NCBI GenBank assembly: GCA_025362495.1
Contig: JANYGI010000113.1
Location: forward strand, 62,001 to 126,000
DNA: 64,000 nt
Direction of reading: 5' to 3'
Origin: Byssovorax sp.
GTDB taxonomy: Bacteria; Myxococcota_A; Polyangia; Polyangiales; Polyangiaceae
Positions 5,926-28,649 of this stretch are shown in pieces. The notes under the pieces are model-generated. The model searched no databases. It was not told where the DNA came from and worked only from the letters and a program-made list of their open reading frames with translations. Every line of letters begins with the position of its first letter. Position 1 is the first letter of the stretch. The translations under genes and the position numbers were made by a program.

Positions 5926-7656
5926 ATGCGGACCCGGCTGGCCACCATCTGCCTTCTAGCTTCCAGTTTGATCCTCGCGCCCGCGGCGGCAGAGGCGCAG
6001 GGCAAGAAACCCGCTGCTGCAGCAGCGAAGAAGGGCGCGAAGGACGACAAAAAGGTCGCCACCAAGCCCGGCGAGAAGCCCAAGGAGATCCAGCTCGAGG
6101 AAGAGCAGGAAGGCCCCGTCACCGCCGGGCAGATGACGGAGGAGGCCGCCCAGGGCAAGCGTCTGTTCGACGCCGAGCGCTGGAGCGAGGCCGCGCTCGT
6201 CCTCAAGCGTGTCGTCGACAACGAGACGGGCGACGACGAAGGCAACAAGCAGATCGCCCAGTACCACCTCGCGATCGCGCTCTACCGCCTCCAGTTCTAC
6301 CAGGCCAGCTACGGCATCTTCTCCTCGATCGCCGACAAGGCGAACCACCTGAAGTTCAACGAGACGCTCCTCTGGCTCTCGAAGCTCGCGACGCAGCTCC
6401 CCGAGCCCGCCGACATCATCGAGCGCGTCGGCAAGTACAAGACCGATCAGGTCGCGCGGTTCAACAACCCGCAGCAGCGCGATCTGTACTGGCAGCTCAA
6501 CTACCTCCTCGGCCGGTACAAGTACCGCAACCGCAACTACGAGGAGGCGATCAGCCTCTTCGAGAAGGTGGACAAGAAGAGCAAGTACTTCGTCCAGGGC
6601 CAGTTCTTCTCGGGCATCTCGTACGTGCAGCTCCGCAAGTCGGTCCCCGCGGTGAAGTCGTTCCAGCGCATCGTGCAGTCGATCGACGAGGGCACCGAAG
6701 GCGTCGAGGACGAGGCGCGCATGCGCGACCTCGCGTTCCTCTCGATGGCGCGCACGTACTACTCGGCCTCGGTTCGCCTCGACGACAACAACGTCCCGAC
6801 GATCGACTCGTCGAAGCTCTCCGCCGCCGTCAAGTACTGGAACCGCGTCGACGTCGCGAGCGAGTACTGGCTCGACGGCCTGTTCGAGCAGTCGTGGGCC
6901 TACTTCATGGCCGGCGATTACCCGCACGCCCTCGGCAACATCCACACGATCGAGGCGCCGTACTTCCCGAACTCGTTCTACCCGGAGGCCGACATCCTGA
7001 AGGCCGTCATCTCCTTCACGATCTGCCAGTACGAGGACGCGACCACGATCGTGGCGCGCATGAAGCGCAAGTACGAGCCGATCAAGAAGGAGCTCGAGGC
7101 CGTGCTCAACCGCTTCAAGGGCGAGGGCAGCGAGCAGCAGTTCTTCACCTTCCTGAAGGACGTGCGCGCCGGCAAGGCCAACCTCTCCCCGACGATCCGT
7201 CCCGTCGTCGAGAGCGCCCTCGCCGATCGTCAGCTCCTCCGCAACCTCGAGTACGTGCGCGTGCTCGACGAGGAGGACGCGCGCTTCAAGAAGGCGCCCG
7301 CGAGCTTCCGCAACTCGCCCCTCGGCGGCGACGTCACCGACGCGCTCAACCTCGCCCGCGAGCTCGCGACGCGCAACGCCGGCACGCTCGCCCGCGAGCG
7401 CTACCAGCGCAACCTCGACGAGCTCAACGAGCACCTCCGCGACGCATCGAAGATCCTGATCGACATCACGGCGGCCGAGCGCAACAAGCTCGACAACACC
7501 ATCGTCACCGGGCAGCTCTCGACGGCCGACTCGCTCACGTACGGCGTCGTCAAGCCCGACGACGAGCACGTCCTCTGGCCGTTCAACGGCGAATACTGGC
7601 GCGACGAGCTGGGCTTCTACCGCCAGGTCGTCGTGTCCAAGTGCGCGAACAAGTGA
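5926..7656 (+). CDS. Exported TPR protein, first gene of the Glt locus (GltC-like)
   Basis: 576 residues from the ATG at 5926, preceded by GAGGA; the frame is open further upstream but without a ribosome binding site. Signal peptide at residues 1-24 (LATICLLASSLILAPAAAEA), then an Ala/Lys/Glu-rich linker. TPR-like helical repeats fill the rest (EEAISLFEKVDKKSKYFVQG; SAAVKYWNRVDVASEYWLDG). It lies 44 bp before the gltD-like gene. In M. xanthus, GltC is a periplasmic TPR protein of similar size, so a GltC role is likely. TPR similarity alone cannot prove orthology. It would act as a periplasmic scaffold of the gliding apparatus. Confidence 0.72.
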   Translation: MRTRLATICLLASSLILAPAAAEAQGKKPAAAAAKKGAKDDKKVATKPGEKPKEIQLEEEQEGPVTAGQMTEEAAQGKRLFDAERWSEAALVLKRVVDNETGDDEGNKQIAQYHLAIALYRLQFYQASYGIFSSIADKANHLKFNETLLWLSKLATQLPEPADIIERVGKYKTDQVARFNNPQQRDLYWQLNYLLGRYKYRNRNYEEAISLFEKVDKKSKYFVQGQFFSGISYVQLRKSVPAVKSFQRIVQSIDEGTEGVEDEARMRDLAFLSMARTYYSASVRLDDNNVPTIDSSKLSAAVKYWNRVDVASEYWLDGLFEQSWAYFMAGDYPHALGNIHTIEAPYFPNSFYPEADILKAVISFTICQYEDATTIVARMKRKYEPIKKELEAVLNRFKGEGSEQQFFTFLKDVRAGKANLSPTIRPVVESALADRQLLRNLEYVRVLDEEDARFKKAPASFRNSPLGGDVTDALNLARELATRNAGTLARERYQRNLDELNEHLRDASKILIDITAAERNKLDNTIVTGQLSTADSLTYGVVKPDDEHVLWPFNGEYWRDELGFYRQVVVSKCANK

Positions 7657-7700
7657 CTCCGTAGGTCCGCTCTCTCGGTCTTTAGCGTGAAGGGTTGGGT

Positions 7701-10700
7701 ATGAAGACGAAGCATCGGAACTCGGTCTTGCTGAGCGCACTGCGCAGGGCCGCGGGCGCCCTGGCGGTGACCGCCGGCGCCGTGGTGGCAGCGGGGCCGG
7801 CATCGGCAGCCGACGTGTGCATCTCGCAGTCCGCGAAGGACGCGCTCGCGGCCTGTCCGGGAGGCAAGCTCGAGGCGTCGGCCGGCAAGAAGCCGCAGGT
7901 CAGCTTCAAGTCGGCGCCGTCGGCGATCAACCTGAAGAAGGGGGAGCAGCAGCTGAAGCCGAGCAACCCCTCGGCGTCCATGAACGCGGCGCAGCGCGAC
8001 GAGCGGCGCAACCGCCTCGCGGCGCGCTCGCGGCAGCTGCTCGTGACGGAGATCCAGGGCCTCGAGAGCCTGTACACCTCCACGCCGAAGAACGCGCCGG
8101 ATCGGCCGAAGCTGATGCGGCGCCTCGCGGAGGGCTACGTCGAGCTCGAGTCCGCGGCCTTCCGCGACAAGACCGAGAACGGCATGAAGGCCGACGAGGC
8201 CAAGAAGAAGGATCCGGGCAAGGCCGCGGGCTTCGCCGCCGAGGCCGGCAAGGCCGACAAGATCCTCGGCGCCGCGCGGCAGGCGGCGATCAAGAACTAC
8301 ACGAACCTCAAAGATCAATACCCGAAGTGGTGCCAGAACAACAACGCGTCGAACCCGGCGCAGAGCACCGGCTGCACCGACGAGGTTTTGTACTACCTCG
8401 CGTACGAGTACGAGCAGGCGCTCAACCTCGACCAGGCGCGCAAGGTGTACCTCGAGCTCATCCAGAGCTGGCCCAACTCCAAGTTCATCCCCAACGCGTA
8501 CCTCGCGTTCGGTGAGCTCTTCTTCAACGAAGCGCAGGGTGATCCGACGAAGTGGGCCCTCGCCGAGCAGTCGTACTCCGAGGTCATCAAGTACCCGGCG
8601 CCCGAGAACAAGGTCTGGGGCTACGCCCACTACAAGCTCGGCTACGTCTACTGGAACAAGGGCGACTTCGCCCGCGCCATGAGCGAGCTGAAGAAGACGA
8701 TCGACTACGGCACCCAGTACTCGTCACTGCCGAACGCCGAGCAGCTCGCCACCTCGGCGCGCCGCGACATCATCCCGATCTACGCTCTCGCCGGCGATCC
8801 GAAGCGCGCCTACGACTTCATCAAGCCGCTCTCGGGCGACTCGGGCGTCAACAGTGAGAAGACGTTCAAGCTGATGGACGATCTCGGGCAGAGCTACCTC
8901 GACACCGGCCACTACGCCGAGGGTATCGTCCTCTACACCGACCTGAAGAACCGCGATCGCGGCCCCAAGGCGTGCGTGTACCAGGGCCACATCGCCGAGG
9001 CGACGCTGGCGATGAAGTCCGGCAACAAGGACCTCATCATCGGCGAGCTGAACAGCCAGCTCGATACCCACAACAAGTTCGTCGCCGACCAGCAGCCCGC
9101 CGACGCGAAATTGAAGTGCGCGAACATCACCGCCGATCTGCTCGCAGAGACGGCGATGGCGTGGCACCTCGAGGCCGTCGGTTCCGGCGGCGTCCGCGGC
9201 ACCGGCGACAAGAAGACGATGGCGCTCGCCGCGCAGATCTACGCCAACCTGGTCAAGACCTTCAAGCAGGACGACTTCGCGAAGTTCGAGTTCCCCCGCA
9301 TCGTGAAGGAGGACTGGCCGAACATCTTCAAGATCAAGTACCAGATGGCCGATCTGCTGTACTTCCAGAAGGATTGGGCCAAGTGCGGTCCGGCGTTCGA
9401 CGCCGTCGTCGCCGAGGATCCTTCCGGTCCGACCGCGCCCGAGGCGGCGTACGCGGCGGTGCTCTGTTACCAGAACATCTACACCGAGACGCACAAGGAC
9501 GGCTCCGACAAGAAGGGCGGAGGCAACCTCCCCGGCGGCAAGGGCAAGAAGGGCGATACGAAGGCGTCGGAGAAGGCGAAGTTCGCTCCGAAGGACTTCA
9601 CCGACAACCAGAAGGGGATGCTCACCGCCTTCAACCGCTACGTCTGTTACATCAAGCCGCCCGCGGGCGACAAAGAGGCCAACGACAACTACGTCGAGGT
9701 CAAGTACGCCCGCGCCCGCACCTACTTCGAGGCGCAGCACTGGGAAGAGGCCGCTCTCGCGTTCCGCGATGTCGCGCTGAACTACGCCGACAAGGACGTC
9801 GGGGTCTACGCGTCGCAGCTCTACCTCGAGTCGCTCAACGTGCTCGCCAACAACGTCGAGCCGGGTCACCCCTCGTGCCTCGACGACATGGCGGACGACG
9901 TCCCGAAGTTCGTCGATCTCTACTGCAAGGGCGGCAAAGAGAAGGAAAACGCCGAGCAGTGCGGGACGCTCCTCGGCATCCAGCGCGACATCGAGCGTCT
10001 CAAGGCCGAGGCCCTCGTGAAGGCGGCCGACGCCGGTGGCGCCGAAGCTTCGAAGCAGTACGAGAAGGGCGCGCAGGCCTACCTCGAGCTCTGGAAGAAG
10101 TATGGCGAAGGCCCGTGCGAGGCCAAGCAGCCCTCGTGCGCGCGCAACGACGAGGTCCTGTACAACGCGGCCCGCGCCTTCCAGGCGGCGCGCCTCATCG
10201 CCAAGTCGATCGCGGTTCGCAAGATCCTGATCGACCCGAAGTACAACCTCAACACGACCGAGCTCGCGAAGAAGGCCGTTTACGAAATCGGCGGTAACTA
10301 CCAGGCGATCGCGGTCTACGACGAAGCCGCCAACTGGTACGAGAAGTTCGCGGCGACGAACGCCAGCGCCGAGAAGGCCCCCGAGGCTCTCTCCGATGCC
10401 ACGGTCCTTCGCCTCGGTCTCGGTCAGGAAGACCAGGCGATCAAGGACGCCGACCTCTTCAACAAGAACTTCGGTTCGAAGAAGCCGGCGCAGACGGCCG
10501 CGATCGCCTTCGCCATCGGCGCTCACTACATCGATCGCGAGGACTGGGGCGAGGCGCGCAAGCGGCTCACCAGCGCGATGAGCCAGATCGACAAGAACGC
10601 GACGCTCGATGTTCAGATCCAGGCGCACGCCATGCTCGGCCTCGTGTTCACGAAGCTCAACAGCGCGTCGAACGCGGTCACCGAGTACAACAAGGTTCGC

Positions 10701-11555
10701 GGCCTGTTCAAGGATCCGACGGCCTCGGTCAAGAAGATCACCGACGGCGGCGGCGACGAGCGCAAGGTCGCGAAGGCGCTCACCGCGGTCGGCGAGGCGA
10801 TGTTCTTCTTCGCCGAGCAGCGCCGCAAAGAGGTCGATAAGATCAAGTTCCCCGAATACAAGGGATCGGGGACGCGCGAGGACGTGCTCAAGCACGTCAA
10901 CACCAAGGTCACCGATTGGGTGAAGAAGAAGCGCCCGGCGATCGAAGAGGCTGCCGGCGAGTACAAGAAGATCGTCGACATGCAGCCCGCGCCCCCGCCG
11001 AAGTGGGTCATCGCGGCCGGTTCGCGCGTCGGTCAGATGTGGGGCAAGTTCGTCGCCGAGTTCCGCGCCGCTCCGATTCCGAAGGAGTGGAAGGGTCACG
11101 GCGTCGTCCCGGGCACCGATGGCCTGACGTACGACGAAATCCGAGGCGAGTACTACGCGAAGCTGGACGAGGCGAGCGAGCCTCAGAAGCAGACCGCAAA
11201 GGGCGCGTACCAGACCTGCCTCAAGTACTCGGTCCAGTTCCAGTACTTCGACGAGTACTCGCGCCGCTGTGAGGAGTGGCTCTCGAAGAACTTCGGAGCC
11301 GAGTACCACCTCATCGACGAGTTCCGTGGCTCGCCGTCGCGCGTGAACTCGGGTCTCAGCGACGCGCCCGCGCCGCTGAATCTCGACGGGACGACGTACC
11401 ACGTCGACGCGCCGGCTCCGGCTGACGCGCCGAAGGACGACAAGGGCGCGCCGGCGGCCGACAAGGGCGATGCGGCAGGCGACAAGCCCGCCGACAAGGC
11501 CGGCGTCTCGAAGGAAAAGTCGGCGCTCGACAAGGCCAAGATCAAGAAGAAGTGA
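7701..11555 (+). CDS. gltD: Large exported TPR protein, GltD/AgmU-like
   Basis: 1,284 residues. The start is the ATG at 7701 with GAAGGG six bases upstream; a TTG two codons earlier is less likely. Signal peptide at residues 1-36, ending near GPASAAD. The rest is a solenoid of degenerate TPR-like units (EALNLDQARKVYLELIQSWP; AALAFRDVALNYADKDVGVY) with a Lys/Gly-rich insertion near residue 615 and a disordered Asp/Lys/Ala tail. Length and position match M. xanthus AgmU (GltD), a periplasmic component of the gliding complex, and the next gene matches GltE. The stop lies 14 bp before the next ATG, indicating one operon. Confidence 0.8.
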   Translation: MKTKHRNSVLLSALRRAAGALAVTAGAVVAAGPASAADVCISQSAKDALAACPGGKLEASAGKKPQVSFKSAPSAINLKKGEQQLKPSNPSASMNAAQRDERRNRLAARSRQLLVTEIQGLESLYTSTPKNAPDRPKLMRRLAEGYVELESAAFRDKTENGMKADEAKKKDPGKAAGFAAEAGKADKILGAARQAAIKNYTNLKDQYPKWCQNNNASNPAQSTGCTDEVLYYLAYEYEQALNLDQARKVYLELIQSWPNSKFIPNAYLAFGELFFNEAQGDPTKWALAEQSYSEVIKYPAPENKVWGYAHYKLGYVYWNKGDFARAMSELKKTIDYGTQYSSLPNAEQLATSARRDIIPIYALAGDPKRAYDFIKPLSGDSGVNSEKTFKLMDDLGQSYLDTGHYAEGIVLYTDLKNRDRGPKACVYQGHIAEATLAMKSGNKDLIIGELNSQLDTHNKFVADQQPADAKLKCANITADLLAETAMAWHLEAVGSGGVRGTGDKKTMALAAQIYANLVKTFKQDDFAKFEFPRIVKEDWPNIFKIKYQMADLLYFQKDWAKCGPAFDAVVAEDPSGPTAPEAAYAAVLCYQNIYTETHKDGSDKKGGGNLPGGKGKKGDTKASEKAKFAPKDFTDNQKGMLTAFNRYVCYIKPPAGDKEANDNYVEVKYARARTYFEAQHWEEAALAFRDVALNYADKDVGVYASQLYLESLNVLANNVEPGHPSCLDDMADDVPKFVDLYCKGGKEKENAEQCGTLLGIQRDIERLKAEALVKAADAGGAEASKQYEKGAQAYLELWKKYGEGPCEAKQPSCARNDEVLYNAARAFQAARLIAKSIAVRKILIDPKYNLNTTELAKKAVYEIGGNYQAIAVYDEAANWYEKFAATNASAEKAPEALSDATVLRLGLGQEDQAIKDADLFNKNFGSKKPAQTAAIAFAIGAHYIDREDWGEARKRLTSAMSQIDKNATLDVQIQAHAMLGLVFTKLNSASNAVTEYNKVRGLFKDPTASVKKITDGGGDERKVAKALTAVGEAMFFFAEQRRKEVDKIKFPEYKGSGTREDVLKHVNTKVTDWVKKKRPAIEEAAGEYKKIVDMQPAPPPKWVIAAGSRVGQMWGKFVAEFRAAPIPKEWKGHGVVPGTDGLTYDEIRGEYYAKLDEASEPQKQTAKGAYQTCLKYSVQFQYFDEYSRRCEEWLSKNFGAEYHLIDEFRGSPSRVNSGLSDAPAPLNLDGTTYHVDAPAPADAPKDDKGAPAADKGDAAGDKPADKAGVSKEKSALDKAKIKKK

Positions 11556-11569
11556 GGAGGGTGAGAGCC

Positions 11570-13060
11570 ATGAAGAAGAGCATGTTGGTGGCGGCCGCCC
11601 TCCTCGTCTGGGCGACCGGTTGCAGTGGTCCGGCGGGCGAAGGTCCCGGCGGCAAGGTCCCGGGGAAACCCACGGGTCCGACGGACAGCAAAGGGAACGA
11701 GGTGTCCGCCGCGGCGGTCAACAAGTTCAACGCGGCGCTGGACATGATGACGGCCCACGACAAGGCCGGCGACTGGAACGACGCCGCGTGCACGGCGAAC
11801 GCGGCAGCGTTCGTCGAGGCGGCGAAGGAGCAGGGCGACAAGACGTTCGGCGAGGCGCTCTACAACGCCGGCTTGGCGAGCCAGCGCTGCAAGAAGGACG
11901 CGGAGGCGAAGGCCTTCTTCAAGCAGGTCCTCGACAAGGATCCGAAGTTCCACCGCGCGCGGTCGCAGCTCGCCCTCTACGCATTCGCGGAGTCGGGCGA
12001 GAAGAACTTCGACCAGGCCATCTCCGAGATGCGCCAGGCTGCGATCACCGATGCGCAGTTCAAGAACGTGGAGGCCCTGGTGAACCTGGGGATGCTCTAC
12101 ATCAAGCGGAACAACCAGACGGCCGACAGCGAAGGCCCGACGGATCTCGCGCGCGCCAAGAAGTACATTCAAAGCGCGCTCGCGGTCGACGACGGGTTCA
12201 TGCCCGCCTTCAACCAGCTCGCCATTCTCTACATGGAGACGGCGAACCAGAAGGCGGGTCGCGACGCCAAGCAGAAGACGGCCACCAGCGGCAGCAAACA
12301 GAAGAAGGTCGACTCTCAGGCGCTCGAGCTCGCTGCGCTCGTGTGCTCGCAGGCCGTACGCAAGAACCCCAAGTACGCGCCGGTTCACAACACCGCCGGG
12401 ATGATCCAGGTCGAGCTCGGGAACTTGAACTCCGCCGTCGGTGAGTTCAACAACGCGCGCACGATCGATCCGACCTTCTACGAAGCGCAGATGAACTACG
12501 CCGCCGTGAACCTCCAGTTCCGCGGCTTCGGGCAGGCTGAAGAGGCCTACCGCGCTGCGCTCAAGATGCGTCCCGCGGACTACGACGCTCACCTCGGCCT
12601 CGCGCTCGCGCTGCGCGGCCAGATCGACGACTCGAACTTCGACAAGAAGGTCGCTGAAGCAGCTGCCGAGATCGATGCGGCGAAGAAGGCGGCGCCGGAT
12701 CGCGCCGAGACCTACTACAACGAAGCGATCCTCACGCAGGAGTACAAGGCGAAGGCCGGCGGCAAGGGCGGCGAGGGCGAGCTGGTCAACGCCAAGGGGC
12801 TCTTCGGTCAGTTCGTCCAGAAGGCTGGCAGCGCCGCGGAGTTCGCCGACGCCGTGAAGCGCTCGAAGGACCGGATCGCCGAAATCGATCAGATCATCGA
12901 CTTCAACAAGCAATCCGACGCGCAGCGCAAGGCGGCCGAGGCCGATCTCAAGCAGAAGGCCGCCGAGGCCGAAGCCAAGGACGGCGCCGAGGGCGAGGCC
13001 GGCGACAAGGGCGACAAGGGCGCCGGGGCCGGCGACAAGAAAGACGCTCCGAAGCAGTAG
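11570..13060 (+). CDS. gltE: TPR lipoprotein, GltE/AglT-like
   Basis: 496 residues. The ATG at 11570 follows a GGAGGGTGAG ribosome binding site that overlaps the end of the previous gene. The signal is a lipoprotein type (MLVAAALLVWATGCSG) with the lipidated cysteine at about residue 19. TPR units follow (ALYNAGLASQRCKKDAEAKA; GRDAKQKTATSGSKQKKVDS is a loop between repeats). The C-terminus is a Lys/Ala/Asp/Gly-rich tail. In M. xanthus, AglT (GltE) is a TPR protein needed for A-motility and encoded next to AgmU, as here. The likely location is periplasmic, lipid-anchored. A strong hairpin follows the stop. Confidence 0.78.
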   Translation: MKKSMLVAAALLVWATGCSGPAGEGPGGKVPGKPTGPTDSKGNEVSAAAVNKFNAALDMMTAHDKAGDWNDAACTANAAAFVEAAKEQGDKTFGEALYNAGLASQRCKKDAEAKAFFKQVLDKDPKFHRARSQLALYAFAESGEKNFDQAISEMRQAAITDAQFKNVEALVNLGMLYIKRNNQTADSEGPTDLARAKKYIQSALAVDDGFMPAFNQLAILYMETANQKAGRDAKQKTATSGSKQKKVDSQALELAALVCSQAVRKNPKYAPVHNTAGMIQVELGNLNSAVGEFNNARTIDPTFYEAQMNYAAVNLQFRGFGQAEEAYRAALKMRPADYDAHLGLALALRGQIDDSNFDKKVAEAAAEIDAAKKAAPDRAETYYNEAILTQEYKAKAGGKGGEGELVNAKGLFGQFVQKAGSAAEFADAVKRSKDRIAEIDQIIDFNKQSDAQRKAAEADLKQKAAEAEAKDGAEGEAGDKGDKGAGAGDKKDAPKQ

Positions 13061-13092
13061 TGAACGAGCCCCGCGACCACGCTGGGCAGGAG

Positions 13093-13134
13093 CCCCTCTT
13101 CCCGCTCGGACGGGAAGGGGGGTTCCCTGTTTTC
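13093..13134 (+). terminator. Terminator-like hairpin after the gltE-like gene
   Basis: A 12-bp stem (13093-13104 with 13111-13122, one G-T wobble) closed by the 6-nt loop ctcgga, then a T-richer run (ttccctgtttt). It lies 32 bp after the stop and would separate the TPR genes from the downstream part of the locus. The remaining 340-bp gap to 13400 holds the promoter at 13331 and a small gctccc/gggagc hairpin near 13270-13290. Confidence 0.65.
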
Positions 13135-13360: not shown

Positions 13361-13399
13361 GTTACTGTAATAGCAGCGCAAGATTTCGAGGAGACTGAA

Positions 13400-13666
13400 A
13401 TGCAAAGGTCAACCCGTTGGGGCATGGCGGTGGTCGCCGCGGTGAGCGTGTTCGCGATTACGTCAGAGGCTCTGGCGCAGGGCGCGGACAAGAAGAAGAA
13501 GGACGACGGCTACGGCTACGAGTTCTCGGACGATCCGCTGAACGCAGGCGGCTTCGGTCCGAACGACGCGACGATTCGCGTCCGCCCGGGCCCGGTCCGT
13601 ACGACTCTGATTCGCCCCCGCACGTCGTTCGTGCCGGAGATGCTCAAGTCGGTCGAGAACCTCTAA
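13400..13666 (+). CDS. Small exported protein in the Glt locus
   Basis: 88 residues with a GAGGAG ribosome binding site. Signal peptide at residues 1-28 (WGMAVVAAVSVFAITSEALA, cleaved before QGADKK). The mature part is about 60 residues: a Lys-rich start, an Asp/Tyr/Gly stretch (GYGYEFSDDPLNAGGF) and an ordered C-terminus (RPRTSFVPEMLKSVENL). It lies between the gltE- and gltG-like genes, the slot of gltF in M. xanthus, but I cannot show homology. Probably a small periplasmic accessory of the gliding machine; the role is inferred from position only. Confidence 0.65.
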   Translation: MQRSTRWGMAVVAAVSVFAITSEALAQGADKKKKDDGYGYEFSDDPLNAGGFGPNDATIRVRPGPVRTTLIRPRTSFVPEMLKSVENL

Positions 13667-13786: not shown

Positions 13787-15844
13787 ATGGAAGGCAAGCA
13801 AAAGGTCGCTCTCACATTTGCGCTCTACCAGAACGAGGCGCTCGTCCGTCGCGAGACGGTTACGCAAGACATCGTCAAGGTGGGCAAGGACGCGAAGAGC
13901 CATCTGCGCGTCGACGACGAGCTTGCCTCGCGCATGCACGCCGTCATCGAGGTCGCGTCGCCGGAGGACATCACGCTCATCGATCTCGGCAACGAGCCGG
14001 GGACGATGGTGAACGGCGCCCGCGTCAACAAGTGCAAGATCAACCCCGGCGATCAGCTGCAGATCGGTGGGACGAAGATCGTGCTCGAGCGCGCTGAGCC
14101 GGTAGCGGTCGCCGCCGCTGCGGCGGCCAAGGCGCCGGGCGCTGGCCCGTTCGCCGCGCCGTCGGCTCCCACGTCGAACCCGTTCGGAGCGCCGGCCTCG
14201 AACCCGTTCGCCGCGGCCGCGCCCTCGAACCCGTTCGCTGCTGCTCCGGCGAATCCGTTCGGTGCCGCTGCGGATCCCTTCGCGTTCAACAACCCCTTCG
14301 CGCAGAAGGTGGCGGACGTCGACGAGGTTCCCCACGACGCTCCGGAAGGCTCGTACACGTACACGCTCGTCAAGAGCGCGCCCGACGTGCCGAACGAAGA
14401 GGTCGAGAGCCCCGCGCAGTCCGTCGAGGTCATGATCCTCTGGGATACGTCGGTGCTTCATGTTTCGCACCTCACCCCGCCGCGCTCCTACTACGTGGGC
14501 GAGGAAGAGGGGAAGAACTTCACTTGCGACTACTTCATCCCTTCGGAGAAGCTCGGGACTACGCGCGCGCCCATCGTCCTCGCCGATCGTGGTGGCTCGA
14601 TCAGCGTCGTGTTCCCGCCCCGCGCGACGGGTACTGTCGAGATCCCCGGCCAGCCGAAGATCACGGTCCAGCAGGCGATCGAGACCGGCCGCACGCAGCC
14701 TTGCTCCGAGCTCTCCGGTGCGCATCAGATGGCGTTGCCGAATGGCTCCAAGGTAAAGATCGAGCTCGGTGGGCTCACCTTCCAGGTCTCGACCGTCAAC
14801 GCCGGCCGCGTCGTCGCCGGTCACTTCCAGGTCGACACGCAGGGGCTGCTCTACACGGGCCTCTCGCTGGCGGTTCACGCGGGTCTGCTCGCGGCGATGG
14901 CGTTCTTCATGCCCGCCATGAACGGCACCGACGAGGACGGGATCTCGTCCGATCAGCAGTACCTGATCCAGCAGTATCTCCAGGCCGCAGCCGAGAAGGA
15001 GATCGAGGAGAAGGAAACGGAGCAGGTCGCCGACAACGCCGCCGACAATAAGGAGGGCGGTACCGGCACGCGCGCCAAGGGTGAAGAGGGTTCGATGGGT
15101 AACCCCAACACCAAGTCGACGGGCAACCGTTACGGCGTGCAGGGTCCGGCCGACAACCCCGATCCGCACATCGCGCGCGCCTCGGCGCTCCGCGACGCTG
15201 CCGAGTTCGGCATGATCGGTCTGCTCAACTCGGGCGCTGGTGGCGATCCCAACGCGCCGACGGCGCCGTGGGGTCGCGACGAGTCGCTCGGCAACGATCC
15301 GCTCAGCGCCCGCGGCAACATGTGGGGCAACGACATCGGTGATTCGTTTGGCGCCGGCGGCCTCGGCCTCTCCGGCATCGGCGAAGGTGGCGGCGGTCGC
15401 GGCGAAGGCATCGGCCTCGGCTCGATCGGCACCATCGGTCACGGCGCCGGCACCGGATCGGGGCAGGGCTTCGGCTCCGGCCACGGTCGCCTCGGTGGCT
15501 CGCACCGGACCAAGCCGCCGCAGGTTCGCATGGGCGCGACGCAGGTCAGCGGGCGTCTCCCGCCCGAGGTCATCCAGCGTATCGTCCGCCAGAACTTCGG
15601 TCGCTTCCGCCTCTGTTACGAAAACGGTCTGCGCAACAACCCGAACCTCCAGGGACGCGTCCAGGTGCGCTTCGTCATCGGTCACGACGGCGCGGTCTCG
15701 CAGGTGGCGAACGGCGGCTCGGACATGCCGGACAGCGGCGTCGTTTCGTGCACGGTCCGTGCGTTCTACGGGCTCTCGTTCCCGCAGCCCGAAGGCGGCA
15801 TCGTCACGGTCACGTACCCGATCATGTTCGCCCCCGGCGGCTGA
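13787..15844 (+). CDS. gltG: FHA-TM-AgmX/PglI C-terminal domain protein, GltG/PglI-like
   Basis: 685 residues from the ATG at 13787, with a GAAGGGAAGG ribosome binding site. Residues 25-105 form an FHA phosphopeptide-binding domain (SHLRVDDELASRMHAVIEV; GTMVNGARV), with Lys where the first conserved Arg usually sits. A region of repeated NPF-type motifs follows (SNPFGAP, SNPFAAA, ANPFGAA), then a beta-rich domain. One transmembrane helix is at about 356-378. A Gly-rich periplasmic linker leads to the AgmX/PglI C-terminal domain (about 581-685; GRFRLCYENGLRNNPNLQGR, with two conserved Cys). In M. xanthus, PglI (GltG) is the inner-membrane protein linking cytoplasm to periplasm. The architecture is diagnostic. 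Confidence 0.88.
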   Translation: MEGKQKVALTFALYQNEALVRRETVTQDIVKVGKDAKSHLRVDDELASRMHAVIEVASPEDITLIDLGNEPGTMVNGARVNKCKINPGDQLQIGGTKIVLERAEPVAVAAAAAAKAPGAGPFAAPSAPTSNPFGAPASNPFAAAAPSNPFAAAPANPFGAAADPFAFNNPFAQKVADVDEVPHDAPEGSYTYTLVKSAPDVPNEEVESPAQSVEVMILWDTSVLHVSHLTPPRSYYVGEEEGKNFTCDYFIPSEKLGTTRAPIVLADRGGSISVVFPPRATGTVEIPGQPKITVQQAIETGRTQPCSELSGAHQMALPNGSKVKIELGGLTFQVSTVNAGRVVAGHFQVDTQGLLYTGLSLAVHAGLLAAMAFFMPAMNGTDEDGISSDQQYLIQQYLQAAAEKEIEEKETEQVADNAADNKEGGTGTRAKGEEGSMGNPNTKSTGNRYGVQGPADNPDPHIARASALRDAAEFGMIGLLNSGAGGDPNAPTAPWGRDESLGNDPLSARGNMWGNDIGDSFGAGGLGLSGIGEGGGGRGEGIGLGSIGTIGHGAGTGSGQGFGSGHGRLGGSHRTKPPQVRMGATQVSGRLPPEVIQRIVRQNFGRFRLCYENGLRNNPNLQGRVQVRFVIGHDGAVSQVANGGSDMPDSGVVSCTVRAFYGLSFPQPEGGIVTVTYPIMFAPGG

Positions 15845-15853
15845 TGGTCCTCG

Positions 15854-20100: not shown

Positions 20101-23100
20101 TCCAGTACGCGATCGCCGATCTCTACGAGAAGGAGATCAAGGATCCGAAGAGCGCGATCGCCACGTACATCCAGGTGCTCGACGACGAGCCGATGGATGC
20201 GCAGGCGCTCGCCGCGCTCGACAAGCTCTACCTCGAGCAGCAGGAGTGGGAGCCGTACGTCGAGGTCCTGCGCAAGCGGATCGAGCTCGACGTCAGCGAG
20301 GGCGTGCTCATCGATCTCAAGCTCCGCCTCGGCGGCGCGCTCGAGAGTCACCTCGGCGATCCGGCCGGCGCGCTCGACAACTACCGCGAGATTCTCCTGA
20401 TCGATCCGGGCAACGACGCCGCCCGCGCGGCGCTCGAGGCCATGCTCGGCCGCGAGGATCTGCGCGCCGACGCCGCCGGCATCCTCGAGGAAATCTACGA
20501 AGGCCGCGGCGACTGGGAGAAGCTCATCCAGGCGCTCGAGATCCTCGCGGCCTCCGAGAGCGACGTCGCGGGGCGCGTCGGCCTCCTGCGCAAGGTCGCG
20601 CGCACGGCGGCCGAGAACCTCGCGGATCTCGGCCGCGCCTTCGACGCGCAGGCCCGCGCGCTCAAGGACGATCCCTCGAACGCCGACACCCGCGCCGAGC
20701 TCGAAGCGCTCGCCGAGAAGTCGGGCGCGTGGGATCGGCTCGACGCGATCTTCAGCGAGATCGCGCAGGGCATCAGCGACGCTCGCCTGGCGCGCGAATA
20801 CTGGATGCGGCTCGCCGGCATCCACGAGCGCCTCGGCAAGATCGAGGAGGCCGCGAGCGGTTACAACCGCGTGCTGTCCATCGATCCGGCCGACCACGAG
20901 GCCCTCGCCGCGATGGACGCGCTCTACCGCCGCACCGAGCGCTTCGCCGATCTCGTCGGCGTCTTCCGGCGGCGGATCGAGCTCGCCGGCGAGGGGCCGG
21001 AGCGCGAGACGCTCTACGCCCAGATGGCCGAGGTCTACGAGCAGAAGCTCGGCAAGCCCGAGGACGCGATCGCCGCCTACCGCGAGGTGCTCAGCCTCGA
21101 CGAGACGAGCCATGTCGCGCTCACGGCGCTCGACGGCCTCTTCACGCGCCAGGCGATGTGGAACGAGCTCGCCGAGAACCTCGAGTCGCAGCTCCGCCTC
21201 GCGATCGAAGACGACGATCAGATCCGCCTCATGCTCCGCCTCGCCGCGCTGCGCGAGTCGCGCATGAGCCTCGTCGAGTCGGCCATCGACATCTACAGCC
21301 AGGTCCTCGAGCGCGAGCCCGGCAACGTCGAGGCCCTCGCGGCGCTCGAGCGCCTCGGCCTCCTGCCCGAGCACGAGATCCCGATCGCCGAGATCCTCGA
21401 GCCGCTCTACCGCCAGTCCGGCGACTTCGCCAAGCTCGTGGGCGTGCACGAGGTGCAGGTCCGAAGGAGCGAAGATCCGGGCCGCCGCGTCGAGCTCTTG
21501 CATCAGATCGCCACGCTGCACGAGGACGCAGGCGGCGATCTCAGCGCGGCGTTCGACACCTTCGCTCGCGCGCTGTCGGAGGACCCCGCGTCCGAGACGA
21601 CGCAGGACGGCCTCGACCGCCTCGCGCGCGCCACGGGTCGCTTCGCCGACCTCGCGCGCGTCTTCGAAACGCTGGCGGCGCGCCAGGCCGAGCCCGAGCT
21701 CGCGAGCACGCTCTTCACCATGAGCGCGCGCGTCTACGAGAACGATCTCGCCGACCTCGACAGCGCCGTTCGCCACTACCGCAAGGTGCTGGAGATCGAC
21801 GCCAAGAACCTCCCGGCCGCCGAGTCGCTCGACCGCATCTTCCGCGGCGCGGAGCGCTACCAGGAGCTGTCGCAGATCCTCCAGCAGAAGGCGGAGATCC
21901 TCGACGAGATCAACGACAAGAAGTCGGCGCTCTTCCAGGCCGCGTCGATCGAGGAAGAGATCCTCGAGCGTCACGATCAGTCGATCGCCGTCTACGGCAA
22001 GGTCCTCGAGCTCGACTCGGAAGACCTCCGCGCCATCGACGCGCTGATCAAGCTCTACCTCGGGCTCTCGCGCTGGACCGACCTCCTCGCCGTGTACGCG
22101 AAGAAGGCCGATCTCGTCACGGACGCCGAGGAAAAGAAGCTGATCTACTACCAGATCGGCGCGGTCTACGAGCGCGAGCTCGGCGACGTGGCGCGCTCGA
22201 TCGACACCTATCAGCGAGTGCTCGAGATCGATCCCGACGATCTCCAGGCGCTGGGGCGCCTCGACGTTCTCTACCAGACCGCGCAGAACTGGCAGGAGCT
22301 GCTCAGCGTCCTCCAGCACGAGGCCGAGCTGGCGCAGGATCCGGCCGAGGGGATCAGCTACCAGTACCGGATCGCCGAGCTCTACGAGAAGCACCTCGAC
22401 GACACCACGCGGGCGATCGAGCTCTACCGTGATCTCCTGCAGCAGATGCCGGATCACGCGCCGACGCTCGAGGCCCTGGAAGGCATCAAGAGCGGCGTCA
22501 AGGATCCCCTCGGCGCGGCGCTCGTCCTCGAGCCGATCTACGACGGCGTCGGCGAGTGGCAGAAGCTCATCAGCGTGCTCGAGGTCCAGGTCAAGTCGGC
22601 GGAGGATCCCTTCGCGCGCGTCGATCTGCTCCACCGGATCGCGCGGCTCCACGAGGAGATGCTCACCGACCACCGCTCGGCCTTCGAGACGTACGCGCGC
22701 GCGGTCGCGTTCGACATCACCAACGAAGACTCGCTCCATAACCTGGAGCGGCTCGCCATGGCCGTCGGCCGCTGGCCCGACGTCGCCGCGCTCTACGACG
22801 CCGAGCTCGACAAGCTCTCGGAGGATCCGGGTCGCTTCGTCGAGCTCGGGCTCCGGCTCGCGCAGATCTTCGAGACGCAGCTGGAAGACGTCGAGAACGC
22901 CGTCATCCGGTACCGGCGCGTCATCGCGGCGGACCCGGAGAACCACGCGGCGATCTCCTCGCTCGATCGGCTCTTCACGATGACGGAGCGCTGGCCCGAG
23001 CTCGTGCAGATCCTCGCCCGTGAGGCCGAGATCGGGCAGAGCCCCGACGAGATCCTCGAGTTCAAGTACCGGCTCGGCCTCGTCCACCAGAGCCGGCTCA

Positions 23101-26100
23101 GCGATCTCTCGTCGGCGATCGCGGCCTACCGCGACGTGCTCACGGCGGCGCCGGAGCACCACCAGACGCGCGAGGCCCTCGAAGGCCTCTTCGCTGCTGG
23201 GGTGCAGCAGATGGTAATCGGCGAGATCCTCGAGCCGCTCTATCAGGCCTCAGGCGACTGGGAGAAGCTCGCGGGCGTGCTCGAAGCGCTGCTCGCGCAC
23301 CTCACCGACGCGGCGTCGCGCCTCGCGATGTACTACCGCCTCGGCGAGCTCCAGGAAGAGCGGCTGATCGCGCTCGACGGCGCGCTCGACGTGTTCGTGC
23401 GCGCCGTGAAGGAGTACCCGACCGACGAGAAGACGCTCGAAGAGGTCGAGCGGCTCGCCGGCAGCACCGACGGCGGCTGGGAGAACCTGGCGAACGCCTA
23501 CGCCGACGTGCTCGGTCTCCACGCCGAGAAGGCGGTGCAAGCGGCGATCGGCAAGCGCCTCGCGCGCGTCTTCGAGGAAGACCTCGGCGACGTGCAGAAG
23601 GCCGAAGAGACCTACCGCTACGTGCTCAGCGTCGAGGCACTCGACGTCGAGGCGCTGACGAACCTCGACCGGATCTACTCGTCGATCGAGCAGTACCCGG
23701 AGCTCGCGCAGACGCTCGAGCAGCGCATCAAGGCGACGACCGAGCCCTATGAGCTCGTCGATCTCCACAACCGGCTCGGCCAGATCTACGAGGAGCGCTT
23801 GAACGAGCCGGATCACGCGATCCGCATCTTCCGCCGCGTCTTCGACGATCTCGACAAGGCCAACGAGCTGGCCATCTTCGCGCTCGAGCGCATCTACGGC
23901 GCCAAGGGCGCGTGGACCGACCTCAAGGTCGTGCTCGATCGCGAGCTCGAGAACGCCGGCGGCGACACGCAGGAGGCCGACATCCGCGCCAAGATGGCGC
24001 ACCTCCTGTCGGGTCACCTCAATGACATCCCCGGCGCGGTCGAGACGTGGAAGCGCGTCCTCGAGCTGCGCGGCGAGGACCACGAGGCCCTCGGGGCGCT
24101 CGCCGATCTCTACGAGCGCGTCGAGCAGTGGGCCGAGCTCTGCGACGTGCTCGAGCGCCACTACGACATCGCGAGCGACGACGTCGCGCGCGTCGAGGTC
24201 CTCCTCCGCCGGGCCAAGCTCTTCAGCGAGCGGCTCGGTCGCGACGACTCGGCGCTCGACGACTACAACCGCGTGCTCGACATCGACTACGCCAACTCGC
24301 ACGCGCTCTACGCGATCTCGGAGATCTGGCGTCGCCGCAACGATCCGCAGGAGATCGTGACCTCGCTCCACCAGACGGTGGATCGCGCCGCGGCCGCTCT
24401 GCCCGCCGAGAACCTCGTGGCGATCTTCCGCGAGCTCGGCACGATCTACCAGTCGACGCTCGCGCAACCGTACGACGCGATCGACGCGTGGCGCCGCCTG
24501 CTCGGCGTCGATCCGCGCGACTTCGAGGCCATGGCCGCGCTCGAGAACCTGCTCCGCGCCGAGGAGCGCTGGGTCGAGGTGATCGACGTGAAGATGGGCC
24601 GCGCCCAGGCCTACGAGGACCCGCAGGAGAAGATCCGCGAGTACCTCGAGGTCGCGGCGATCTGGGAGCACCAGGTCGGCGAGAAGGACAAGGGCACGCC
24701 GGCCTACGAGAAGATCCTCGAGCTCGACGGCACGCACGATCAAGCGTTCTTCGCGCTCGAGCTGCTCCACGGCGCGGCGCGCCGGAGCGAGCCGCTGATA
24801 GAGCTCTACCTCGCCCGCCTCGACACGCGCGAAGAGGTCAAGGACAAGACGACCATCCTCCGCAAGGTGGCCAAGGTCTTCGAGGAGCAGCTCGAGGATC
24901 GCGCGCAGGCGTTCGACGCGCTGCTCACCGCCTTCGAGCTCGACTTCTCCGACATGGAAGTGGTGCGCTACCTCGAGCGGATGTCGCAGGCCACGAACCG
25001 CTGGCCCGAGCTCGTGCAGACCGTCAACGCCTGGCTCGGCCAGCAGACGGATCCGCTCCAGAAGATCACGCTGAGCCTGCGCCTCGCCAAGTGGTACGCC
25101 GAGGATCTCGGGCACCCCGAGTACGCGCAGGGCTACTACCAGCAGGTCCTCACGCTCGATCCGAACAACGTCGCCGTGCTCCGTCAGATGGCCAGCTTCT
25201 TCAAGAAGACGGGCCGCTGGCAGGAGCAAGGGCAGACGCTCACGAGCGCGCTCAACGTCGCCGTCACCGACTTCGATCGCAAAGAGATCCTCACCGACCT
25301 CGGCGAGGTGCTCGAGCGTCACATGGGCGAGGTCGATCAGGGCCTCGGCTTCTACAAGCGCGCCCTCGATGTCGACCAGCTCCACCTGCCGGCGCTCGAA
25401 GCCCTCGAGCGCATCTACGCCGAGCGCAACCTCTCGGCCGAGCTCGTCGAGATCCTCACGCGCAAGGCCAGGGCCCTCACCGAGCCCGAGCTCATCGGCA
25501 ACACCAAGCTGCGCACCGGCGGCCTCTACGAGACCGCCCTGCACCAGCCCGAGAAGGCCGGTCAGGTCTACCGCGAGGTGCTCGAGCTCGACGCGTCGAG
25601 CCTCCTCGCCATGCGCGGCCTCGAGCGCGTGTACACCGCCAGCGCGCAGTGGCCCGACCTCGTCAAGGTGCTGGAAATGCAGCTCGACGTCGTCACCACC
25701 GAGCGCGAGCGCATCGACGTGCTCCTGAAGATCGCCCAGATCCAGGAGGAGCAGTTCCTCAAGCCGGATCTGGCCGCGGCTCGCCTCGAGCAGGTCGTGG
25801 AGATCGACGGGACGCACGAGCTCGCGCTCGAGTCCCTGGAGCGCTGCTACCGCCGCCTGCGGCAGTGGCTCGATCTCATCAACACCTTCGATCGGCACAT
25901 CAACGCCACGCACGATCGCCAGAAGAAGATCGATCTCTGGAGCGCCACGGCCAAGGTCTACGCGGAGGAGGTCCAGGACCTCGACCACGCGATCGACTCG
26001 TGGCTCAACATCATCGAGCTCGAAGACACCAACATCCCGGCCCTCGACGCCCTCGCCAAGCTCTACGAGAAGCAGGACGATGCGGCCAAGGCCATCGAGT

Positions 26101-28649
26101 ACATGACGCGCGTCGCCGACCTCACGGCCGACGGCAAGCAGCGCGTCGAGATGTATTTCCGCATCGGCAAGCAGCTCGACGAGAAGCTCGGCGATCGTCT
26201 CCAGGCGCAAGAGCGCTTCGAGATGGCGCTCGATCTCGATCCCGCTCACCTGCCGACGCTCGCGGCGCTCCGGATCATCGCCATCGACGGCGCCGACTGG
26301 GATCGCGCCGCGCGCTACCTCGATCAGGAGCAGATGAACACCGAGGCGCCGCGCGGGCGCGCCAAGCTCCTCGTCGAGCTCGGCAAGCTCCGCGACGAGA
26401 TGCTCGGCGAGCACGACCTCGCGGTGCAAGCCTACGAGCTCGCCCTCCAGAGCGACGGCGACAACGAGGACGCCGCGCTCCCGCTCCTCAACGAGTACGT
26501 GGCCACCACGCAGTGGTCGAAGGCCGAGCCCCTCGCCGAGATGCTCGCGAAGAAGAGCGGCAAGCGCGAGCGCCCGGAGCAGCACCGCCTCCAGAACCTG
26601 CTCGGCAAAGTCGAGGCGGCCCTCGGCAAGAACGAGCAAGCCCTCAAGGCATACCTCGCGGCGAACCACCTCGATCTCACCGATCAGGAGACCATCCGCG
26701 GGCTCGCCGACGTGAGCTTCAAGCTCGGCGACTGGGCGGGCTCGCTCACGAACTACCAGAAGGTGCTGACGGCGCTGGGCGAGGAAGAGACCGAGGCGCG
26801 CGCCGAGGTCTACTTCAAGCTCGGCCTCGTCAAGCAGAACCAGGGCCAGGCCAAGCAGGCGATCAACAACTTCGAGAAGGCCCTCGCGCTCGAGCCGTCG
26901 CACCGCTCGACGCTCGACGCGATGGTCGCCGTCTACGAGAGCCTGAAGGACTGGAAGCAGGTCTGCGCGTACCGCCGCCAGATCCTCGACAACGTCGTCG
27001 AGGGCGGCGAGCGCTTCCGGATGTTGAACCAGATCGGCGACATCTGGGTCGACAAGGAGAACAACGTCGATAAGGGCATCGAGGCCCTCGAAGAGGCGCT
27101 GGATCTCGAGCCGCAGGACCACGTCCTCCTGCACAAGCTGCTGCAGCTCTACCAGAAGGCCAACCAGTGGGACCGGATGGTGGACTGCCTCCAGCGCATC
27201 GCCGATCTCGAGATGCAGCCCGAGCGCAAGAGCCGCTACCTCTACACGATGGCGCAGCTCTATCGCGACAAGCTCGACGATCAGCTCCGCGCCGTCGACC
27301 TCTTCAACGAGGCGCTCGATCTCAACCCGAACTTCCTCGAGGCCTTCGAGCGCATCAACAAGATCCTCACGGCGCTCAAGGAGTGGAAGCAGCTCGAGCG
27401 CGCCTACCGGAAGATGCTCCACCGCGTCGCCGGCAAGGGCAACAACGACCTCGAGTACAGCCTGTGGCACGCGCTCGGCCTCATCTACCGCGACCGCCTC
27501 GGCGACAAGAACGCCGCGGTGGAGACGTTCCGGATGGCCTCGCGCCTCAAGCCCGACAACCTCGACGAGCACTTGATCCTCGCCGAGCTCCACGAGCAGC
27601 TCGAGCAGCCCGACGACGCCATCGTCGAGTTCCAGGCGATGCTCAAGCTCGACCCGATGAAGGTCGATCCCTACCGCCGGCTCTACCGCCTCTACCTCGA
27701 CAAGAAGGCCTACGATCCGGCGTGGTGCCTCGCCGCGGCGCTCGCCTTCCTGCGCAAGGCCGACGAAGAAGAGCAGCGCTTCTTCGAGGATTACCGCCCG
27801 CAGGGGATGATCCAGGTCAAGAGCCGGCTCGACAACGAGCAGTGGATCAGGAACCTCTTCCACGAGGACGAGAACCTCTACGTCGGCAAGATCTTCGAGA
27901 TGATCGCCTCCGCCGCGCTCAAGGCGAAGATCGAGCAGCTCAAGGTGAAGAAGGAAGTGCCCGTCCTCGATCCGCGGTTCCGTCAGGATCCCGCGACGTC
28001 GACGGTCACCTTCGCGCGCACCTTCGGCTGGGCCGCGCAGGTCCTCGCGGTGCCCGCGCCGCTCCTGTACGTGCGCAGCGACGTCCCGGGCTCGCTCGTG
28101 GCCGTGGCCAACGAGCAGCCTGCGTCCGTCGCCGGGCAGACGGTCCTCACCGGCTTCACGCCGCAGGACCTGACGTTCATCGTCGGCAAGCACCTCGCGA
28201 TGTACCGCGGCGAGCACTACATCAAGACGCTCTTCCCGACGGTGACCGAGCTGACCGTGATGCTCTTCGCGGGCATCAAGCTCGTCGCTCCCGAGACGCC
28301 GGCGCCCGCCGACATCGAGAAGCACATCATGGCGACGGCGGCGACGCTCCGGCAGTACATCCAGCCGATGCAGCTCGAAGGGCTGCGGATGGTGGTGAAG
28401 AAGTTCCTCGCCGAGGGCGCCAAGGCCAACATCAAGCGGTGGATCCAGTGCGTGGAGATCACCGCGGCCCGCACCGGCCTGCTCCTCTGCGGCGATCTCG
28501 AGATCGCCAAGAAGATCATCGCCGCCGAGCCGCAGCAGCCCGGTGATCTCACGGCCCAGGAGAAGCTGAAGGAGCTGATCCTGTTCTCGATCTCCGACCA
28601 GTACTTCGCGCTCCGTCAGTCCCTCGGGATCAACATCGGCGCAGAGTAG
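17193..28649 (+). CDS. gltI: Giant TPR protein, GltI/AgmK-like
   Basis: 3,818 residues, close to my recollection of M. xanthus AgmK (GltI), a cytoplasmic giant TPR protein of the gliding complex. There is no signal peptide or TM helix. Residues 1-380 are TPR-like, and about 382-483 is a Pro/Ala/Val/Glu linker. From there to about 3,500 the chain is dozens of 34-residue TPR units with a recurring WxxL/Y and ALxxLDP pattern, e.g. ALEALERIYAERNLSAELVE. The last 225 residues (about 3595-3818) are a distinct, non-TPR domain (see findings). The ribosome binding site is weak (GAAGAAGA). The long open frames on the opposite strand are shadows of the biased codon use. A terminator follows at 28704. 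Confidence 0.9.
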   Translation: MDLAQRLNHLESVRDWQGLADELERAIPAETSAAVKASYHLKLGRVLEDKFLLAVKALKHFQDAFKLNPALIEALQQARAIYWALGKTNMVQKLLELELKSAAEGPAQTALLLELGDVLTDLGDHEKAASTYARALASSGGASDAARDGLADTQVDEGSAPGHLEALVEIAGAEHDPAARSRLYLRASRIAKRFSPTEVEGLLTRAYEADPSDKQAATTFEQLMMEEDRAQAIAETQRRVLSASNGADRAANAFRFGVRWATRHQNHELGAQLIQSAFEADPDNEAAFSYLRELWGTKQGEWDRVIKLIEAAADANPTSPFLVAQAGTIVWRQGGNLMRARGWFERLAAIAPEHATLRAFEAQIGEPVGAVEAGAALPAAEEAPIDVVVASEPPPPVAMLESEPPPAPAKAASEPPPARLHKPEPVVAEVAPVSASVAVSEPAPVSVAPPAAVAAPVSVPPPAPAAAAPAAEPVAAAKPAVNVDELIAKGQKQEQAKRYNEYVKTLIEIAEAVDSPAEKIEYYAKAADLYTTKFSNAAEAVKCFESILALDGEHAAAIDFLRQSYEKRRDWEKLIGLMKREAGAMPEGAARGAKFLEVAKLATERVKKPEVCIDLWNEVIANDPENAEALNALAGLHERAKDWPALAAVLQKQVDSTYDSAVKQVLLGKLGALYGERLNDDEAAVEAWRQLLALNPQDRKAQEALKKKYLTLGRWDDLEVFYAESGKWDEFIRVLETQEAKETIDQAKIGLLVKIAQLWMVQKGKPDRAAKAYEKVLSIDAQHLEAAEALIPLYEQANNPKGLAGAIEVKLLHPQDDGAKLELYRQVAGLYETKLKEPQRAFERYLSAFEIAPGDERCIDDVERAARATAGWDALITAYSAAITRAEGEAEHELAIALRLRLGRVLRDEVKRVDDALAQFRAVYDADGENDAAISALEQLYRDTARFGELLGIYEKKRELVTEVEAKKQIQYAIADLYEKEIKDPKSAIATYIQVLDDEPMDAQALAALDKLYLEQQEWEPYVEVLRKRIELDVSEGVLIDLKLRLGGALESHLGDPAGALDNYREILLIDPGNDAARAALEAMLGREDLRADAAGILEEIYEGRGDWEKLIQALEILAASESDVAGRVGLLRKVARTAAENLADLGRAFDAQARALKDDPSNADTRAELEALAEKSGAWDRLDAIFSEIAQGISDARLAREYWMRLAGIHERLGKIEEAASGYNRVLSIDPADHEALAAMDALYRRTERFADLVGVFRRRIELAGEGPERETLYAQMAEVYEQKLGKPEDAIAAYREVLSLDETSHVALTALDGLFTRQAMWNELAENLESQLRLAIEDDDQIRLMLRLAALRESRMSLVESAIDIYSQVLEREPGNVEALAALERLGLLPEHEIPIAEILEPLYRQSGDFAKLVGVHEVQVRRSEDPGRRVELLHQIATLHEDAGGDLSAAFDTFARALSEDPASETTQDGLDRLARATGRFADLARVFETLAARQAEPELASTLFTMSARVYENDLADLDSAVRHYRKVLEIDAKNLPAAESLDRIFRGAERYQELSQILQQKAEILDEINDKKSALFQAASIEEEILERHDQSIAVYGKVLELDSEDLRAIDALIKLYLGLSRWTDLLAVYAKKADLVTDAEEKKLIYYQIGAVYERELGDVARSIDTYQRVLEIDPDDLQALGRLDVLYQTAQNWQELLSVLQHEAELAQDPAEGISYQYRIAELYEKHLDDTTRAIELYRDLLQQMPDHAPTLEALEGIKSGVKDPLGAALVLEPIYDGVGEWQKLISVLEVQVKSAEDPFARVDLLHRIARLHEEMLTDHRSAFETYARAVAFDITNEDSLHNLERLAMAVGRWPDVAALYDAELDKLSEDPGRFVELGLRLAQIFETQLEDVENAVIRYRRVIAADPENHAAISSLDRLFTMTERWPELVQILAREAEIGQSPDEILEFKYRLGLVHQSRLSDLSSAIAAYRDVLTAAPEHHQTREALEGLFAAGVQQMVIGEILEPLYQASGDWEKLAGVLEALLAHLTDAASRLAMYYRLGELQEERLIALDGALDVFVRAVKEYPTDEKTLEEVERLAGSTDGGWENLANAYADVLGLHAEKAVQAAIGKRLARVFEEDLGDVQKAEETYRYVLSVEALDVEALTNLDRIYSSIEQYPELAQTLEQRIKATTEPYELVDLHNRLGQIYEERLNEPDHAIRIFRRVFDDLDKANELAIFALERIYGAKGAWTDLKVVLDRELENAGGDTQEADIRAKMAHLLSGHLNDIPGAVETWKRVLELRGEDHEALGALADLYERVEQWAELCDVLERHYDIASDDVARVEVLLRRAKLFSERLGRDDSALDDYNRVLDIDYANSHALYAISEIWRRRNDPQEIVTSLHQTVDRAAAALPAENLVAIFRELGTIYQSTLAQPYDAIDAWRRLLGVDPRDFEAMAALENLLRAEERWVEVIDVKMGRAQAYEDPQEKIREYLEVAAIWEHQVGEKDKGTPAYEKILELDGTHDQAFFALELLHGAARRSEPLIELYLARLDTREEVKDKTTILRKVAKVFEEQLEDRAQAFDALLTAFELDFSDMEVVRYLERMSQATNRWPELVQTVNAWLGQQTDPLQKITLSLRLAKWYAEDLGHPEYAQGYYQQVLTLDPNNVAVLRQMASFFKKTGRWQEQGQTLTSALNVAVTDFDRKEILTDLGEVLERHMGEVDQGLGFYKRALDVDQLHLPALEALERIYAERNLSAELVEILTRKARALTEPELIGNTKLRTGGLYETALHQPEKAGQVYREVLELDASSLLAMRGLERVYTASAQWPDLVKVLEMQLDVVTTERERIDVLLKIAQIQEEQFLKPDLAAARLEQVVEIDGTHELALESLERCYRRLRQWLDLINTFDRHINATHDRQKKIDLWSATAKVYAEEVQDLDHAIDSWLNIIELEDTNIPALDALAKLYEKQDDAAKAIEYMTRVADLTADGKQRVEMYFRIGKQLDEKLGDRLQAQERFEMALDLDPAHLPTLAALRIIAIDGADWDRAARYLDQEQMNTEAPRGRAKLLVELGKLRDEMLGEHDLAVQAYELALQSDGDNEDAALPLLNEYVATTQWSKAEPLAEMLAKKSGKRERPEQHRLQNLLGKVEAALGKNEQALKAYLAANHLDLTDQETIRGLADVSFKLGDWAGSLTNYQKVLTALGEEETEARAEVYFKLGLVKQNQGQAKQAINNFEKALALEPSHRSTLDAMVAVYESLKDWKQVCAYRRQILDNVVEGGERFRMLNQIGDIWVDKENNVDKGIEALEEALDLEPQDHVLLHKLLQLYQKANQWDRMVDCLQRIADLEMQPERKSRYLYTMAQLYRDKLDDQLRAVDLFNEALDLNPNFLEAFERINKILTALKEWKQLERAYRKMLHRVAGKGNNDLEYSLWHALGLIYRDRLGDKNAAVETFRMASRLKPDNLDEHLILAELHEQLEQPDDAIVEFQAMLKLDPMKVDPYRRLYRLYLDKKAYDPAWCLAAALAFLRKADEEEQRFFEDYRPQGMIQVKSRLDNEQWIRNLFHEDENLYVGKIFEMIASAALKAKIEQLKVKKEVPVLDPRFRQDPATSTVTFARTFGWAAQVLAVPAPLLYVRSDVPGSLVAVANEQPASVAGQTVLTGFTPQDLTFIVGKHLAMYRGEHYIKTLFPTVTELTVMLFAGIKLVAPETPAPADIEKHIMATAATLRQYIQPMQLEGLRMVVKKFLAEGAKANIKRWIQCVEITAARTGLLLCGDLEIAKKIIAAEPQQPGDLTAQEKLKELILFSISDQYFALRQSLGINIGAE

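Follow-up and report, generated by a model that had tools for sequence, protein, structure and literature searches.

A run of seven genes on the plus strand of the window (positions 5926-28649) is very probably the glt operon of a gliding machine of the Agl-Glt type, in its Polyangiaceae form. Throughout, the window is the whole stretch of 64,000 nucleotides that was analyzed (C129:62001-126000, from a genome of 10.84 Mb in 240 contigs). The genes follow the order gltC-gltD-gltE-gltF-gltG-TPR lipoprotein-gltI, and the locus is near-complete and ordinary. Its genes, their domains, order and conservation are shown here, as is the presence of motor, GltJ-type and barrel genes in the genome. Its features, in window coordinates, are:

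5926..7656, plus strand: gltC, periplasmic TPR protein (NCBIfam NF033756), with a signal peptide in the sequence
7701..11555, plus strand: gltD (agmU), exported TPR protein of 1284 aa, recognized by position, length and conservation
11570..13060, plus strand: gltE (aglT), TPR lipoprotein (NCBIfam NF033758), lipobox WATGC
13397..13666, plus strand: gltF (CglF), small exported protein of 89 aa (NCBIfam NF033764), conserved between gltE and gltG
13787..15844, plus strand: gltG (pglI), 685 aa, with NF033760, an NF033768 tail and FHA domain PF00498
16179..17099, plus strand: unnamed TPR lipoprotein between gltG and gltI, lipobox GAGC
17193..28649, plus strand: gltI (agmK), cytoplasmic TPR scaffold of 3,818 aa with TPR arrays
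4471..5373, minus strand: unnamed Cys-rich lipoprotein, divergent from gltC, a conserved neighbor

The proteins that an earlier note had read from this DNA (TPR envelope proteins, a small exported protein, an FHA-TM-AgmX/PglI protein, a TPR lipoprotein and a 3,818-residue TPR protein) are all there. The likely starts of three of the genes are 5926, 11570 and 16179, the longer ORFs from 5584, 11552 and 15240 being start-codon artefacts. An Rfam scan of the window gave no match. Downstream of gltI lie a Ser/Thr kinase with an AAA domain (30426-34346, minus strand) and a response regulator-GGDEF-EAL protein (34573-36495, plus strand).

That the run is a glt locus, as the note had claimed, is supported alike by its top family matches, by the domains of its proteins and by the order of its genes. 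Searches with profile HMMs gave GltC, GltE, CglF and GltG as best matches in the right order, all below the NCBIfam curated equivalog cut-offs. GltC matched NF033756 over nearly its full length (model positions 68-621; E = 1e-78; 265 bits, cut-off 450), and GltG matched NF033760 from position 3 to 649 of 650 (E = 3e-97; 327 bits, cut-off 650). The architecture of GltG comprises a cytoplasmic FHA domain (PF00498; 48 bits, cut-off 20.7), one TM helix and a periplasmic AgmX/PglI C-terminal domain (NF033768; 83.7 bits, cut-off 40). The best NCBIfam match of GltE was the GltE model NF033758 (E = 1e-20; 74 bits, cut-off 225). GltF covered almost the whole of the 88-position CglF model NF033764 (E = 8e-4; 19.5 bits, cut-off 90), which we read as GltF since its size fits the 89-aa product of M. 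xanthus gltF. GltD and GltI matched none of the NCBIfam Glt models; their assignment rests on position, size, domains and conservation, and the core membership of GltD on position and conservation. M. xanthus GltD measures 1191 aa (PMC3169522). Other Polyangiales have conserved counterparts of these proteins in their own loci; GltD shares 78% identity with its Minicystis rosea counterpart and 74-77% with those from Sorangium (73-78% across Sorangium, Polyangium and Minicystis). Judged from these sequence comparisons, chance is excluded as a source of the Glt family matches. Of the genomes sampled from the phylum, none of 113 scored above the GltG cut-off and one of 331 above that for GltC, so the NCBIfam thresholds seem fitted to Myxococcus and its near relatives, which lie outside our sample.

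Further parts of the machine are encoded beyond the window. The absence of gltA and gltB, which the earlier note had reported, is an effect of the window's edge: a tandem barrel pair (C129:58136-59059 and 59153-60193) lies 1.8-3.9 kb upstream of window base 1, beyond ftsY, which is also upstream on the same contig. The genome holds exactly two OMP_myx_plus genes, as do those of Sorangium So0157-2 and Minicystis, in tandem beside the glt locus, and a barrel stands beyond ftsY in all 29 Polyangiales loci with sequence extending to that point. An orthologue of these proteins (locus L076) is predicted to form an eight-stranded barrel (mean pLDDT 72, barrel part mostly about 80 or above; OmpA match with E = 5e-5). 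We regard the tandem barrels as candidates for GltA and GltB because the M. xanthus proteins are paralogous OmpA-like barrels (PMC4488436). The note was right that gltJ is outside the window, but a candidate exists in the genome (C112:11086-13188), a protein of 700 aa with a zinc ribbon, a GYF domain and an AgmX tail. The zinc ribbon matched PDB 7zok (E = 5e-8) and the GYF domain 7z3c (E = 7e-5), both from M. xanthus AgmX, and the tail scored 39.8 bits, just short of the cut-off of 40. The note had also made its reading depend on AglRQS-type motor genes elsewhere in the genome, and such a set, aglR-aglQ-aglS, was found at C170:14889-16988, encoding a TolQ-type and two ExbD-type subunits with the membrane Asp in both of the latter. 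Sorangium and Minicystis have AglR proteins of 92-93% identity to this one, and the DNA comes from a Polyangiaceae myxobacterium closely related to both genera. AglR relatives at E <= 1e-6 were present in each of the 13 genomes searched; the best one in G002 and in the family f15 genomes comes from a set in which the AglQ-like subunit carries Asn for Asp.

How these proteins interact, how force passes among them and that they serve gliding we infer from M. xanthus, in which AglRQS proton flow, the GltG/GltJ platform, GltA/GltB and an adhesin form the basis of the mechanism (PMC3169522, PMC4488436, PMC13104615). By this analogy, the AglR-AglQ-AglS proton channel would drive movement in the inner membrane by acting on GltG and the GltJ candidate. 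This inner-membrane platform would travel on a track in the cytoplasm, with GltI, the giant TPR protein, as the scaffold on the cytoplasmic side. Force would cross the periplasm by way of GltC, GltD, GltE, GltF and the additional TPR lipoprotein and reach the putative GltA/GltB barrels, which would be linked with a surface adhesin.

There is a small chance that the locus instead encodes a Glt/Nfs-type envelope transporter with a non-gliding use, for example moving surface polysaccharide in sporulation, as Nfs does. The Agl-Nfs machine is a paralogue whose homologous genes follow one another as they do here (PMC3858216), core-complex paralogues without assigned roles are common (PMC3169522), and the scores of the locus under the gliding equivalog cut-offs would fit such a use. 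We nevertheless favor the gliding over the Nfs version because GltI, within the cluster, and the GltJ candidate are present, and the Nfs sporulation paralogue lacks counterparts of GltI, GltJ and GltK (PMC3858216). Alongside these two, the genome has clustered GltD, GltE and GltG, the GltG architecture, a motor with its Asp and the barrel pair; GltI was recognized by its size, its position after gltG and a C-terminal domain common to nine other genomes. This is, moreover, the only full cluster found in the genome: a second gltD stands alone (C24, L207:9393-13043; 57% identical), and a second GltG-like protein (C151, L043:9553-11250), 50% identical in its middle and tail, has no FHA domain and lies outside glt clusters.

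Solo gltD copies were found in three other genomes as well (L117, L105, L100), and their placement on the tree points to three or more independent duplications. We considered the solo gltD copies as part of an Nfs-like second machine and rejected this, given that no other glt genes adjoin them and that on the tree they arose at least three times separately. Giant TPR proteins also occur elsewhere in the genome, at L042:3881-15184 (C128; 3,767 aa), L049:3238-14940 (C9; 3,900 aa) and L048:8479-13863 (C178; 1,794 aa). The C128 and C9 proteins were discarded as second copies of GltI, both lacking the GltI C-terminal domain.

The gene order, which the earlier note had called distinctive, proved to be the standard one in Polyangiales. 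We compared 57 loci encoding GltD relatives, nearly all from Polyangiales and with no Myxococcaceae genome among those retrieved; a sequence search with GltD returned Polyangiales only, and M. xanthus was compared via published descriptions. gltC-D-E-F-G stood in order at every GltD locus holding the relevant stretch, solo gltD copies aside. The TPR lipoprotein followed gltG in 35 of the 37 Polyangiales loci with more than 2.5 kb beyond gltG, Sorangium and Minicystis included; the two exceptions, a Labilithrix MAG and a close relative (L081 and L087), are rearranged after gltG. The same order was found in families f4 (G067), f6 (G077, where no gltF was called), f10 (G002), f15 (G087, G008, G048) and f25 (G038, G108). 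In G002, a single run comprises barrel-gltC-D-E-F-G-TPR lipoprotein-gltI and then a short zinc-ribbon protein like GltJ. The gltC-like gene is indeed placed first here, as the note had observed, but this is not peculiar, as gltC precedes gltD in every Polyangiales locus with both genes.

Because Polyangiales loci and these families share one order, we take it to be general in the phylum, and gltC-D-E-F-G-(TPR lipoprotein)-I is widespread and probably the ancestral arrangement. The split arrangement of M. xanthus, with gltC in a separate cluster beside gltA, gltB and gltK (PMC3169522), therefore looks derived. That separate cluster would favor a lineage-specific rearrangement with gltC moved to the front, in keeping with the note's distinctive order, but we consider this extremely improbable in view of gltC standing before gltD in Polyangiales and in f4, f6, f10, f15 and f25, of the single nfsA-H cluster in M. 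xanthus (PMC3858216, Wartel et al.) and of the G1 and G2 homologues lying together in Anaeromyxobacter (PMC3169522, Luciano et al.). The linkage of gltC to gltD, gltE and gltG was already known from the nfs cluster and from the core complex, in which these genes and the motor occur together (PMC3169522, Luciano et al.); here it is extended as a phylum-wide order, and GltI-type proteins are found in families outside the window's class.

The analysis also exposes several unnamed parts: the TPR lipoprotein, the Cys-rich lipoprotein, the GltI C-terminal domain, the gene after aglS and the second motor set. The TPR lipoprotein has about 300 aa and a conserved start after the lipobox, C[SN]xxR..A, here GAGC and then SRxxxEAxxLAN. 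It was found in all nine further genomes from six families, in distant loci by position, its TPR repeats also matching gltI; its NCBIfam matches include no glt family name. The site between gltG and gltI holds gltH and MXAN_4864/65 (agmV) in M. xanthus (PMC3169522). Transposon screens for gliding had hit agmV, but that study dropped MXAN_4864/65 from consideration as probable pseudogenes. We infer that the TPR lipoprotein and agmV may be the same gene.

In all six Polyangiales genomes examined (the present one, Sorangium, Minicystis, G103, G067 and G013), aglRQS has a second, divergent R-Q-S set as its neighbor, giving two TolQ/ExbD/ExbD sets side by side (C170:12137-16943, or L051:8138-12989, in the present genome; also L220-L224). 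All four ExbD-type subunits keep the membrane Asp in the present genome, Sorangium and Minicystis. Several core-complex paralogues (L186-L189, L198-L200, L227, L228) have Asn in place of the proton-path Asp in their AglQ-like subunit and, where read, retain Asp in the AglS-like one; in M. xanthus, AglQ D28N abolishes function (PMC3858216). It is a tentative proposition, somewhat less likely than not, that the TPR lipoprotein is a true, overlooked Glt component across Myxococcota and that two divergent AglRQS-type motors operate in parallel in Polyangiales. Separately, a conserved fourth gene follows aglS (L051:13032-14078; L220:9853-10857; L221:4400-5314; L222:4365-5525); it encodes about 300-390 aa with a hydrophobic stretch near the N-terminus and has no family match.

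The GltI C-terminal domain (residues about 3471-3818, ~350 aa) has no Pfam match over most of its length. GltI ends in this domain in each of the nine genomes compared (E = 1e-163 to 4e-40), and the 1,794-aa C178 paralogue also contains it. The Cys-rich lipoprotein faces gltC in all 44 Polyangiales loci with enough upstream sequence, and its invariant cysteines are C25, C34, C61, C66, C77, C222, C224, C226, C242, C244, C250 and C269. It has no match in Pfam or NCBIfam, and its fold, predicted with fair confidence (AF2 pLDDT 82), has none in the PDB. We rejected its identification as the von Willebrand A adhesin CglB, finding neither the domain nor a fold match; it is a candidate, unproven, for a surface component.

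Among known systems, the closest are the M. xanthus clusters G1 (gltD-E-F-G-H-I-J, MXAN_4870-4862) and G2 (gltK-B-A-C, MXAN_2538-2541) and the motor M1, aglRQS. Common to both are proteins of the GltC, D, E, F, G and I types, with the D-E-F-G-I order kept, a GltF of 89 aa, a GltI of about 4,000 aa and, in the genome, GltJ-type, AglRQS-type and two OmpA-like barrel genes. Unlike in M. xanthus, gltC is here joined to gltD, gltG and gltI have a TPR lipoprotein between them, the candidate for gltJ is encoded on a separate contig, the two barrel genes are found upstream, past ftsY and in divergent orientation, and the Polyangiaceae genome has a second, divergent R-Q-S set. M. xanthus also has gltH and gltK (CglC), neither of which was recognized here among the neighbors scanned without a family model or M. 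xanthus sequence. The M. xanthus nfsA-H genes likewise form a single cluster with protein types A to G in common (PMC3858216), but without counterparts of GltI, GltJ and GltK, whereas the window locus has GltI and the genome a GltJ candidate. With the gamma- and deltaproteobacterial core complex, in which gltC, gltD, gltE, gltG and aglRQS occupy one region, the locus shares the gltC-D-E-G linkage; it differs in its unlinked motor and in the presence of Group A genes (gltF, gltI, a gltJ type and the barrels). The glt loci of Sorangium cellulosum, Polyangium and Minicystis have the same order and the same neighbors (ftsY, the OMP pair and the Cys-rich lipoprotein), and nothing essential sets the present locus apart from them.
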